Shown: piece after piece, positions 3,743 through 45,067 of the stretch
How the letters are laid out: each line of letters opens with the position of its first letter
Position numbering within the stretch: position 1 is the stretch's first letter
Assembly: GCA_012840395.1 (NCBI GenBank)
Contig: DULL01000046.1
Coordinates: forward strand, 1-64,000
Direction of reading: 5' to 3'
Length of the DNA stretch: 64,000 nucleotides
DNA from: Clostridiaceae bacterium
Lineage (GTDB): Bacteria > Bacillota > Clostridia > Acetivibrionales > DULL01
Notes under the pieces: model-generated
What the model saw: only the letters and a program-made list of their open reading frames with translations
Database searches by the model: none
Told to the model about the DNA's origin: nothing
Made by a program: the position numbers and the translations under genes

Positions 3743-4987
3743 CTATGTTTCTGAAATCAGTCTTTTTTCTCCGGTAATATCCTGTATAGGCTTAATGTCC
3801 TGGGTAACTTCCATTATGCCTAAGAATTCGCCTTTTTGATTTCTCACAGCAAAGTATCTTATAAACACATATTTGTTGCCCATCTTAATCCAGAAATCTT
3901 CATGTTCTTTCTTGCCGGATTTTAGCTCTTCAACTATTTGGTTCACAATGCCGACACTTGCCGGTGGGTGGCAATTGGTTACATGTCTTCCCAAAACCGT
4001 CTTTGGTCTGGCAAATATTCTTTCCTTGCCCTGAGAGAAATATTTCACATGGCCATCTTTATCTACAAATGTAATATCTAAAGGCAAGGTATTAAAAATT
4101 GCATTTATTTCTTCCTGAGAAAGCACTCCTGCATCAAATTTTACTAAATTATTGTCAGAGCAGTCTTCTTCATTAAGTTTGTTTTCTTCTTGGGCTTTTT
4201 TCTCCAGGTTAGCTCTGGCAGGTTTCCACTTTTTCTCGGGTTTTACAAGGAAATACCCAATTTCTTCACTTTCTTCAGCTATCTTCAACCACTCATCCTC
4301 TGTCAAGGTTTCTAATGCCATAGGCAATAGTATTTTTTCTTCTTTATATATCATTTCATTTAGTCTTTTAACTACATTATTAACCTTTTCAACAATATTG
4401 TTTTTATCTCCGGAATAGTTTGCAATAAGTTCTTTCGCTTCCTTTATTGCATCCCTTATCTCATCATCCACACCCCACATTACTTTTGGAGGAGCTGTAA
4501 TGCCGTACTTCTCCAGGTAAGGAAACAGCAAATTTTCTTTTCTGGAATAATGTTTGTCTATTTCAGAGAGAGTTTCAAATTCTTCAAGAAGTAAATTGAC
4601 GTTTTCCTGGCTGTCCGAACTTTTAAAATTCTCCATAAGTGTTATTATTCTGTTATTTAGCAACTCTTCCAAAGCCCTGTTTTCAAGCTTGAAGGTATGG
4701 ACAGGATGGCCGGGAATCTCTTCCTGACTTTGAGGATTGTGAATTTCTTCTATAGAACCTTTAAATACTGCGGCATGTACATCGCAAAGCCTTTGTATTT
4801 CTTCAACAGGCATACCTTCCATGATAAGCGCCTGCTCCATCTCTGTTATCTCAGAAGTGGATATTCCTTTAATCAGCTTTTCAAATCTAGGTTTTACCTC
4901 ATCCACACTTTTTCCCTTATGTAATTCCCCTATGATCTCTTTTAATACTTTTTGACGATATTCACGGTTATTAATTTGTTCGCTCAT
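3743..4987 (-). CDS. DUF438-hemerythrin-PAS protein
   Basis: The 414-residue protein has three recognisable parts: an N-terminal DUF438 helical domain (about 10-85), a hemerythrin-like HHE cation-binding domain (about 95-235, with DKHYSRKENLLFPYLEKYG and further Glu/His positions for a di-iron centre), and a C-terminal PAS domain (about 285-400) containing a NCHPPASV loop typical of this family. Such proteins are common in anaerobes and are presumed to sense oxygen or nitric oxide through the di-iron site. There is no output domain, so it may act by protein contact. ATG is preceded by AGGAGGG. It is monocistronic. Confidence 0.85.
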   Translation of the reverse strand: MSEQINNREYRQKVLKEIIGELHKGKSVDEVKPRFEKLIKGISTSEITEMEQALIMEGMPVEEIQRLCDVHAAVFKGSIEEIHNPQSQEEIPGHPVHTFKLENRALEELLNNRIITLMENFKSSDSQENVNLLLEEFETLSEIDKHYSRKENLLFPYLEKYGITAPPKVMWGVDDEIRDAIKEAKELIANYSGDKNNIVEKVNNVVKRLNEMIYKEEKILLPMALETLTEDEWLKIAEESEEIGYFLVKPEKKWKPARANLEKKAQEENKLNEEDCSDNNLVKFDAGVLSQEEINAIFNTLPLDITFVDKDGHVKYFSQGKERIFARPKTVLGRHVTNCHPPASVGIVNQIVEELKSGKKEHEDFWIKMGNKYVFIRYFAVRNQKGEFLGIMEVTQDIKPIQDITGEKRLISET

Positions 4988-12829: not shown

Positions 12830-14548
12830 TTATATTTTATTCTCTCCTTTATCAAACAAAATCTTGTATTTCATATCACTTTTCAGAATGTGGTTGGTAA
12901 TCCATAGGTATGTAAAGTCTAAAAGCTTGGACAATGTTTCTCTATCTGCAGGGTTTTTAACTTCTCCTGCAATCCTTTCTACAGTTTTAATAAAATATGA
13001 GTGCCCTTTCTTGTGGGTTCCTAAATGGACAAAACAATGTTTTTCCATAACTTCTTCTTCACATTTAAAATGATAATTGGCGTAATCCATTAATTCACCA
13101 AGTATCGTCGAAATCTCAACTGACAGGTCAGAAATATTGTCTGAAAAAACTAAATTTGCAATTTTATTTCCCAATTCAAATAAATATTTGTGCTGCTTGT
13201 CAACTTCAGGAATATCCATTTCATAATCCTTTTTCCACATAAACTTTATAAAGCTGCTTCTTTCAGTTTTTGTTTTTTTCGGCAGCATTTCCAGCACCTT
13301 TTCCTGGGAAACAGGCTTGCCAAACAGATATCCCTGTAAAATTTTACAATTATTTTCTAACAGATAATCCCTTTGTTCAATTGTTTCAACACCTTCAGCA
13401 ATAACTTCCTTGCCTAGTTTTTGTATAATACTTATGAGCATGCCTGTTATTACTTTTTCTCTATTCTCAGTAGTTATCATATCTATAAAAGTCTTATCTA
13501 TTTTAATAATATCTACCGGCAGATCTTTAAGTTCACTTAGTGAAGAGTATCCCTTGCCGAAATCGTCCAATGCGATTTTAATTCCTTTTTCTCTTAACAA
13601 ATTCAGTCTTTGGCTGATGATTGAATAAGATTCTCTTAGTACTGATTCTGTTATTTCCAGATGTAAACATTCCGTATTCAATCCCAGATGATAAGACAGG
13701 TCGAATATGTTATTAATAAAATCATCATCTAGCAACTGATTCACAGAAACATTTATCGACATGGTAAGATTATCATATCCCATACTATGGAGTTCTTTTA
13801 GAAAAAAACATGCATTCCTTAAGACCCATTCCCCTATAGGAATTATAAGGTAATTTTCTTCAGCAATGTTTATAATCTCCATTGGAGATATATCTCCTAA
13901 TTCAGTATTATTCCAGCGGAGTAAAGCCTCAAATCCCAGAATTTCCCCTGAATCAGCTTTTACCTGTGGTTGGTAGTGAATCTCAAATTCATAATTTTTT
14001 AATGCAGTATGAAGATGGTTTTCCAGGGTTGATTTTTTCAAAATACTATTTTGCATATGGTCTTTATAGAAAACATATTTATTCCTGCCACTATATCTGG
14101 CTTTGCTGACAGCTATACTCGAACATTTCAGCAGTTCTTCAACCCTTTGTCCATTGTTTGGGTAGATTGAAATGCCAATATTAAGATATACATTAACAAA
14201 GCATCCCTCTATTTGATTAGTCTCAAGAACACTTTGAATAATCATGATAGCAGCTTCATCAACTTCTGCTATGCTTTTCCACCCATGAAAAACAATCAGA
14301 AAACTATCACTACACAGCCTGAAAATACATGAATTATCAGCGTGAAACATTGAAAGGAGTATCTCGGCTATATAGGCAACTACTTTATTACCATAAGAAT
14401 ATCCAAAATTAGTGTTGATTTCCTTAAAATTATCTATTTCCACATATATAAATGCTGCAGTTTTATCTGGGTGGGCTAATATACATTTATTGATTTCTGA
14501 ATATACAAATGTATAATCAGGAATTTCTAAATAATTATTATTAACCAT
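12830..14548 (-). CDS. GGDEF(degenerate)-EAL-hemerythrin protein
   Basis: This 572-residue protein has three domains: GGDEF (about 20-160), EAL (about 175-425) and bacteriohemerythrin (about 440-565). The GGDEF catalytic motif is replaced by CSDSF, so diguanylate cyclase activity is unlikely. The EAL domain keeps EALLRW, DDFGKGYSSL, IKIDKTFID and AEGVET, so cyclic-di-GMP phosphodiesterase activity is likely. The hemerythrin part keeps DKQH, YHFKCEEEVMEKH, HKKGH and NHILKSD, the residues for a di-iron O2 site. It has no membrane helix. O2 binding may control c-di-GMP turnover. The ATG follows TGGAGG by 5 nt. Confidence 0.92.
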   Translation of the reverse strand: MVNNNYLEIPDYTFVYSEINKCILAHPDKTAAFIYVEIDNFKEINTNFGYSYGNKVVAYIAEILLSMFHADNSCIFRLCSDSFLIVFHGWKSIAEVDEAAIMIIQSVLETNQIEGCFVNVYLNIGISIYPNNGQRVEELLKCSSIAVSKARYSGRNKYVFYKDHMQNSILKKSTLENHLHTALKNYEFEIHYQPQVKADSGEILGFEALLRWNNTELGDISPMEIINIAEENYLIIPIGEWVLRNACFFLKELHSMGYDNLTMSINVSVNQLLDDDFINNIFDLSYHLGLNTECLHLEITESVLRESYSIISQRLNLLREKGIKIALDDFGKGYSSLSELKDLPVDIIKIDKTFIDMITTENREKVITGMLISIIQKLGKEVIAEGVETIEQRDYLLENNCKILQGYLFGKPVSQEKVLEMLPKKTKTERSSFIKFMWKKDYEMDIPEVDKQHKYLFELGNKIANLVFSDNISDLSVEISTILGELMDYANYHFKCEEEVMEKHCFVHLGTHKKGHSYFIKTVERIAGEVKNPADRETLSKLLDFTYLWITNHILKSDMKYKILFDKGENKI

Positions 14549-14677
14549 AGAGCCTCCACTGACTAATACAACTTATCTTATATGTTTTTCGGATAATTCA
14601 CAGGTTTTTTATATACTTTCCTTAGCTATAATCTTCTTTTTCTTATTGTATATTCTTTCATCAGGGCAACTTTTTTG

Positions 14678-19196: not shown

Positions 19197-19490
19197 AAAA
19201 ACCTCTTGTTCCCTTACTAGGGACAAGAGGTTAATTTCTCCTGCGGTGCCACCCAAATTGACATATTAATAATAATATGCCCACTCATTTCATGTACAAT
19301 AATACATGTCCTCTTGTTAACGGGCAGGAACCCCGTCGACGCCTACTTTTTATTCGGATCGCACTCATGAGCCCATTCACCATTAACATCCACGCCACAT
19401 TCGCACCATCTAGTGACTCTCTGTAATTTTCAATTAATGGTTACTATACTCAATCATCACTTTAGTATTATTCTATTTCATAATATAGTT
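19197..19490 (-). ncRNA. T-box leader, tRNA-Trp specific
   Basis: Read on the minus strand, the leader shows a stem I region starting near AGAGAGTCACTAGATGG, a specifier loop GTGAATGGGCTCATGAG aligned with the conserved GAA-codon-...TTGAGC layout, and the T-box TGGGTGGCACCGCA (19255-19242). The specifier codon is TGG at 19375-19373. The bulge UGGC would pair with GCCA, the acceptor end of a tRNA with discriminator G, as bacterial tRNA-Trp has. A terminator stem AACCTCTTGT...ACAAGAGGTT (19232-19202) with TTTTTT follows. The coordinates of the 5' end are approximate. Confidence 0.93.
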
Positions 19491-44870: not shown

Positions 44871-44917
44871 ATATATCTTTCACCTCCTGTGGCAAGCCAG
44901 GTAATGAAAATAATAAA

Positions 44918-45050
44918 CCCTTGCATGCATAGACACATACAAGGGGTAACAACTCTTCAATATATCTCAAGTTTGTCGCCGCCTCGGTAGGAAGACATCT
45001 GTCTATTACGCCTTTCGGCCCCTACTGTCTATGGCAGTCAAGATAGCTTA
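44918..45050 (-). ncRNA. L10 leader with attenuator
   Basis: On the minus strand the leader reads CCATAGACAGTAGGGGCCGAAAGGCG (in pieces, 45035-45005) and then CCTACCGAGGCGGCG (about 44990-44975), matching the L10 leader pattern in which an internal hairpin and CUACCGAGG are conserved. Downstream, CCCTTGTATG (44945-44936) and CATGCAAGGG (44927-44918) form a 10-bp stem with one G-U, followed by TTTATTATTTT, an attenuator. L10(L12)4 binding is the known control in this family. Confidence 0.85.
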
Positions 45051-45067
45051 TTAAATTTTCACACATT

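Follow-up and report, generated by a model that had tools for sequence, protein, structure and literature searches.

A GGDEF-EAL-hemerythrin protein of a Clostridiaceae bacterium as a candidate redox-gated c-di-GMP phosphodiesterase with split counterparts in the phylum

A 572 aa protein encoded by a Clostridiaceae bacterium carries a decayed GGDEF domain, an EAL domain with all catalytic residues and, at its C-terminus, a bacteriohemerythrin domain with a full set of di-iron ligands. Judged from its residues and relatives, it is quite likely a redox-gated c-di-GMP phosphodiesterase, in which the state of the di-iron site would be sensed and passed via a linker to the EAL domain while the GGDEF domain would serve as a dead scaffold. 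Other genomes of the phylum keep this module as two adjacent genes, of which the 572 aa protein is the one-chain form. The EAL-type variant of hemerythrin-coupled c-di-GMP enzymes is new here; the pattern of split and fused forms is the more interesting point.

Gene and Domain Architecture

The window, i.e. the whole stretch of DNA analysed, comprises positions 1–64,000 of contig DULL01000046.1 (assembly GCA_012840395.1, Clostridiaceae bacterium; Acetivibrionales; DULL01). The gene is located on the minus strand (12830..14548) and preceded by the ribosome-binding site GGAGG (14553..14557, minus strand) 4 bases upstream of the ATG. All parts of the protein are accordingly encoded on the minus strand: the degenerate GGDEF domain (residues 25–157, 14078..14476), the EAL domain (residues 177–412, 13313..14020), a linker to which the N-terminal loop of the hemerythrin, with W438, belongs (residues 422–445, 13214..13285, from alignment and model) and the bacteriohemerythrin domain (residues 446–561, 12866..13213). 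In Pfam, these domains score 72 bits (GGDEF, cut-off 23.8), 223 bits (EAL, cut-off 31.3) and 40.6 bits (hemerythrin, PF01814, cut-off 25.3). With all three above their curated cut-offs, the C-terminal fusion of a hemerythrin to GGDEF-EAL, which an earlier note on this DNA had described, is borne out. The NCBIfam models agree: bacteriohemerythrin NF033749 reaches 92.3 bits for the whole protein and 96.3 for the domain (cut-off 84), and TIGR02481 reaches 99 and 103.1 (cut-off 51.75). Pfam found neither an N-terminal nor any other sensor domain besides hemerythrin, and a simple hydropathy scan found no transmembrane-like stretch. Hemerythrin is probably the only recognisable sensor of this predicted soluble phosphodiesterase.

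In an AF2 monomer model (mean pLDDT 82.5, pTM 0.68), a GGDEF-EAL core is followed by a four-helix bundle at the C-terminus; the input comprised 42 aligned rows, of which three, the window protein included, contain a hemerythrin. The linker is poorly placed, with pLDDT below 50 at residues 426–431, and the model gives no clear domain contacts.

The gene is flanked by M20 amidohydrolase and ornithine cyclodeaminase-family genes. On the same strand lie genes for an alanine racemase, an MlrC-like protein (below its cut-off) and Fe-S fumarase/tartrate dehydratase-type subunits. Rfam at gathering thresholds detected no RNA element near the gene; its only matches in the 64-kb window are a T-box (19216–19466) and an L10 leader (44903–45052). 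The T-box leader is encoded on the minus strand and precedes a TrpB-family gene. A promoter and terminator scan of the window yielded counts like those of shuffled sequences (44 vs. 43.5 and 6 vs. 7.1).

An Intact EAL Domain Behind a Decayed GGDEF Domain

Nine residues, E207, N266, E298, E301, D328, D329, K349, E385 and Q405, are those to which we assign the catalytic and metal-binding roles of the EAL domain, and all nine are present, so that the EAL motifs are complete as previously claimed. Seven of these sites are identical in 42/42 aligned rows, D329 is conserved in 37 and E385 in 38. The model reproduces the EAL fold (BifA EAL 8arv_B, Z 34.5, rmsd 1.8 over 253 residues, 42% identity), and the best solved match of the GGDEF-EAL core is PA0575 (RmcA, 5m3c). 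Of the earlier designation as an O2/redox-controlled phosphodiesterase, the enzyme and its input domain stand as predictions from residues and relatives. A c-di-GMP receptor or interaction hub that binds via GGDEF or EAL and performs no meaningful hydrolysis would have parallels in LapD and PopA, described in PMC5052742 as degenerate GGDEF/EAL proteins working in this way. This role is very improbable for a protein that retained every EAL catalytic residue whereas its GGDEF half decayed.

This decay starts at the motif: instead of the GG(D/E)EF signature of diguanylate cyclases, residues 79–83 (14300..14314, minus strand) read CSDSF, as had been noticed before. Further substitutions in the domain are Glu37, Asn54 and Arg151 (D37E, D54N, K151R). 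By comparison with PleD, we take residue 37 to be the Mg-site Asp, residue 54 the guanine-site Asp and residue 151 the phosphate Lys. Asn54 is shared by six other rows of the 42-row alignment, and the guanine-site residue N45 is retained. An I-site RxxD is absent; if its position is set by PleD offsets counted back from the motif, as we assumed, A70 and S73 stand in its place. Since many cyclases also lack the RxxD, this weighs little. The ratio of the mean identity to the other proteins in GGDEF to that in EAL was calculated for the first 22 alignment rows: with 0.58, the 572 aa protein has the lowest value (0.71–0.87 in the 21 others), which argues that its GGDEF half lost constraint. By its residues, the domain is decayed beyond the motif and the cyclase looks dead; the predicted loss of cyclase activity is supported by CSDSF, the additional substitutions and the relatives. 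A bifunctional cyclase/phosphodiesterase was discarded on the basis of CSDSF together with E37, N54 and R151.

PdeA and RmcA are precedents for GTP-activated GGDEF-EAL phosphodiesterases. GTP bound to the degenerate domain might likewise be the main allosteric activator of the 572 aa protein, and GTP had been suggested as an allosteric ligand. The best full-length structural match, the PA0575 (RmcA) GGDEF-EAL structure 5m3c, contains bound GTP, and both the retained N45 and the occurrence of Asn54 in other rows would fit. Because the domain is decayed beyond its motif, with D37E, D54N, GG to CS, E to S and K151R all together, we consider GTP allostery unlikely, and GTP as the main activator highly so.

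The Hemerythrin Domain as Putative Redox Sensor

The di-iron ligands are H453, H493, E497, H512, H516, H553 and D558. All seven are present, as the earlier note had stated, and follow the pattern H, HxxxE, HxxxH, HxxxxD. Six of them are invariant among 17 aligned hemerythrins, the exception being H512, the first His of HxxxH. By profile, the best solved relative is the DcrH hemerythrin domain (2avk/2awc, E 1e-25). Folded alone and without alignment, the hemerythrin part yielded a low-confidence model (pLDDT 58), whose fold matches, with DcrH on top (E 0.014) and none below 0.001, are supportive at most. The protein displays two features of hemerythrin sensors named in a recent review (Kitanishi, 2022; PMC9388753), conserved ligands and fusion to a functional domain. 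As further features, the review lists a large substrate tunnel, rapid autooxidation and redox-dependent output.

Two hemerythrin-controlled c-di-GMP enzymes are described there. Bhr-HD-GYP from Ferrovum sp. PN-J185, like the 572 aa protein, combines a bacteriohemerythrin with all iron ligands and a c-di-GMP phosphodiesterase, but its hemerythrin is N-terminal and its output domain is HD-GYP, whereas ours has an N-terminal degenerate GGDEF domain, EAL and a C-terminal hemerythrin. In VcBhr-DGC from Vibrio cholerae, a bacteriohemerythrin also controls a c-di-GMP enzyme, in this case an N-terminal hemerythrin and an active cyclase instead of an EAL output next to an apparently dead one. Both are active in the diferrous form (PMC9388753). 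DcrH from Desulfovibrio vulgaris shares the C-terminal position of the hemerythrin, but has a chemoreceptor as output; according to the same review, the N-terminal loop of its hemerythrin is ordered in the oxidised state and becomes disordered upon reduction.

Given the ligand set and these two enzymes, the di-iron site would be set diferrous or diferric by O2 or the cellular redox state. The change might be relayed to the EAL domain or the dimer through the 24-residue linker with the hemerythrin N-terminal loop. The GGDEF domain, by its residues, would act as a catalytically dead scaffold. The behaviour of the DcrH loop and the diferrous-active Bhr-HD-GYP and Bhr-DGC favour 'reduced on, oxidised off'. 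By this analogy, we lean towards a diferrous form that is active at low O2 and a diferric form that is off in air, a direction taken over from enzymes whose output domains differ and whose hemerythrins are N-terminal. The same low-O2-on logic is found in a Kosakonia heme-PAS phosphodiesterase, whose activity is higher at low O2, motility being the result (PMC13141831).

With the same sensing, linker and dead-GGDEF steps, the sign or the signal might be opposite, and oxidation, NO, peroxide or iron loading might turn the phosphodiesterase on, so that O2 exposure would make cells swim away. The phosphodiesterases PdeO (DosP) and RbdA are marked O2 (+) in Table 3 of PMC8846402, and in this genome a YcgR-type protein is encoded within a run of flagellar/chemotaxis genes. 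We nevertheless regard this direction as rather unlikely, since both characterised hemerythrin c-di-GMP enzymes are diferrous-active and lose activity in air (PMC9388753).

The GGDEF-EAL core is common to the 572 aa protein and DosP, RmcA and MorA; among these phosphodiesterases, DosP is an O2 sensor. The sensors of all three are of other kinds and N-terminal. The open-access literature yielded no characterised hemerythrin-EAL enzyme, with subscription papers mostly outside the scope of the search, and according to the Kitanishi review a hemerythrin phosphodiesterase of the EAL type had yet to be discovered (PMC9388753). As such, the GGDEF-EAL-hemerythrin combination is not new, since Bailly et al. 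(2008; PMC2556348) counted 84 chimeric hemerythrins, one of which combined GGDEF and EAL; Firmicutes had none.

c-di-GMP in the Source Genome

The source assembly (2.84 Mb, 119 contigs) is listed as 99.99% complete with 1.39% contamination. The 572 aa protein is its only EAL match. It is also one of eight GGDEF matches, and the other seven all keep GG(D/E)EF. Five HD_5 (HD-GYP-type) matches, identified by domain match alone, could make the 572 aa enzyme dispensable. The sole PilZ protein is of the YcgR type (PilZNR-PilZ), i.e. the flagellar brake type. Its gene belongs to a run with FlhA-, SRP54/FlhF- and ParA-like, CheA, CheC and sigma factor genes; we therefore infer that c-di-GMP most likely acts on swimming. 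The genome contains one c-di-GMP-I riboswitch match (L244:3556-3642), located ahead of genes for a LytTR-like response regulator and a sensor kinase, as read by eye from the translations. Lower c-di-GMP would relieve the YcgR-type brake and be read by the riboswitch. By this effector census, the output could be swimming under reducing conditions and slowing or settling after O2 exposure.

Fused and Split Relatives

The taxonomic family of the source is represented by the source genome alone, and comparisons start outside it. A search with the whole protein found matches of E 1e-50 or better in 51 of the 58 genomes of the order, its own included; those other than self are at most 45% identical, and none extends past residue 454. 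The hemerythrin part was searched in 58 order, 391 class, 22 one-family and 398 phylum genomes, sets that overlap. The resulting census of 187 distinct ORFs includes an Aeromonas plasmid protein and loci from the EAL search and leaves out 8 weak places of the order search and 27 of the phylum search. At least 600 nt of flank were available upstream of 180 and downstream of 181 of these ORFs.

Four of the 187 ORFs are GGDEF-EAL-hemerythrin fusions: the window protein, two class-level relatives with a PAS domain in front (G337, 897 aa, GGDEF intact; G207, 723 aa, SGAEF) and WP_244776904.1 from Aeromonas veronii. The latter has the same domain order with 178/562 identical columns (32%), but differs by HAMP and PAS in front, an intact GGDEF and its location on a plasmid; we know of no characterisation. 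The hydropathy scan found no transmembrane-like stretch in the three non-plasmid fusions. At least 5000 plasmid records match the whole 572 aa protein, 32 of which cover at least 80% of it in one place; of the two inspected, Aeromonas has the fusion and Rhizobium does not. The hemerythrin part matched 34 plasmid and 3 phage records, one of them annotated GGDEF. Among five loci from one scan of named-species genomes, none was a hemerythrin fusion.

The 183 unfused hemerythrins include nine with a GGDEF-EAL gene and eight with a GGDEF-only gene on the same strand within 150 nt. In 17/17 same-strand pairs the enzyme gene lies upstream, in none downstream, and the gene order of the split pairs equals the domain order of the fusions. 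One further GGDEF neighbour lies 351 nt away on the opposite strand. Nine genomes from seven taxonomic families contribute one GGDEF-EAL pair each, and G337 carries both a fusion and a split pair. Seven of these pairs have a Met at the hemerythrin domain start, 16–99 nt after the enzyme stop; in the other two, our script found no such Met. The eight GGDEF-only pairs belong to two families, seven of them to one genus (L060, L061, L062, L065, L067, L068, L070); in L050, from another family, the GGDEF-only gene also lies directly upstream of the stand-alone hemerythrin gene. In G034, two tandem hemerythrin genes (L100:3548-4461) follow the GGDEF-EAL gene. Among the nine split enzymes, six contain one or more transmembrane-like stretches; of the other three, L117 and L180 are truncated at the locus edge.

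Among the 12 non-plasmid hemerythrin-paired GGDEF-EAL proteins, six have GGDEF or SGDEF, the others CSDSF, SGAEF, GEDAF, GQDEF, SGDSF and QGEEF. The catalytic residues of the EAL motif are kept in 12/12 (G541 reads ESL). Judged by these motifs, the phosphodiesterase output has been conserved better than the cyclase.

The pairing also bears on a non-regulatory role of the hemerythrin, O2 scavenging or iron storage, with the fusion as a mere tether. A 2016 survey (PMC4919030) reports 91.6% single-domain hemerythrins for a group that combines deep-branching bacteria and Clostridia and suggests that these clostridial proteins help to prevent O2 damage, and 166/183 unfused ORFs lack a same-strand GGDEF/EAL gene within 150 nt. 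Scavenging predicts no particular partner; the recurrent oriented pairing and the fusions to the same enzymes therefore count against it, and we regard a non-regulatory role as improbable.

In the EAL tree, in which 4 of 46 rows are fused, 9 split and the rest without hemerythrin part or partner (the split G034 enzyme entered unlabelled), the window protein, G337, G207, the split G051 enzyme and L013 group at 89/92; L013 lacks a hemerythrin. In the hemerythrin tree (186 rows), which has few columns, an unsettled bootstrap, a very long L189 branch and a long window branch, the three fusions, the G051 hemerythrin and L189 group at 96/85. A wider group adds three f57 split hemerythrins and L138 at 89/93; the remaining split hemerythrins fall elsewhere. 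Label shuffles gave a weak signal in both trees: as few changes as observed occurred for the EAL tree in 36/500 (fused) and 33/500 (split) cases and for the hemerythrin tree in 110/500 (fused) and 22/500 (split); for 'GGDEF-only' the count was 0/500. EAL and hemerythrin distances correlate with r 0.73 in 12 pairs and 0.40 in the 10 pairs left without two near copies, kinship being ignored. A mixed alignment of EAL-only and hemerythrin-only sequences was dropped, as it had conserved columns across unrelated domains and looked misaligned. Together, the trees are suggestive of a co-inherited enzyme-hemerythrin module around the fusions, besides which we read several independent pairings.

Since relatives carry both parts as neighbouring genes, a class of stand-alone bacteriohemerythrins in Firmicutes-like bacteria might be detachable sensor subunits that bind and redox-gate the GGDEF-EAL or GGDEF enzyme of the gene directly upstream rather than O2 scavengers, with the window protein as a natural fusion. 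We consider this a real possibility, somewhat short of even chances. No proposal of trans-acting hemerythrin subunits for GGDEF-EAL proteins was found in the open-access literature, subscription papers being mostly outside the search. For some of the numerous single-domain hemerythrins in Clostridia, the split form thereby suggests a function that can be tested. If the idea holds, the window protein, being a fusion of such a pair, would provide in one chain a ready model for a redox/c-di-GMP switch made of two proteins.

No conserved neighbourhood was found for the three non-plasmid fusions, which are surrounded by M20/amino-acid genes (window), ethanolamine microcompartment genes (G337) and diaminopropionate lyase and YgeY genes (G207). 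The G337 fusion gene (L098:2971-5943) lies just before ethanolamine-utilisation-type genes encoding BMC, EutP, an ANTAR regulator and a PdtaS-like kinase. The hemerythrin genes L175:2206-2700 and L224:2315-2740 each immediately follow a chemoreceptor-like gene of the same strand, gene pairs that are a possible split counterpart of DcrH.

Other Putative Sensors in the Window

The earlier note had also proposed that several oxidant sensors share this region. Its CZB chemoreceptor at 29.4–30.8 kb is real (PF13682, 46.6 bits vs. 29.4). Its second hemerythrin protein (3743–4987) does contain the domain, in the Pfam arrangement DUF438-Hr-PAS_10, but reading the translation by eye revealed neither the canonical HxxxH nor HxxxxD, and a regular expression for the ligand pattern matched solely the 572 aa ORF in the window. 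With canonical ligands missing from the 3743–4987 protein and the three genes far apart, the case for several sensors is weak, and a sensor cluster at 3.7–30.8 kb is unsupported, as other genes intervene between the three. The domain content of the 3743–4987 protein resembles that of P. gingivalis PG_0686 (hemerythrin, PAS10, DUF1858), which is reported to be a diguanylate cyclase without GGDEF (PMC10101095).
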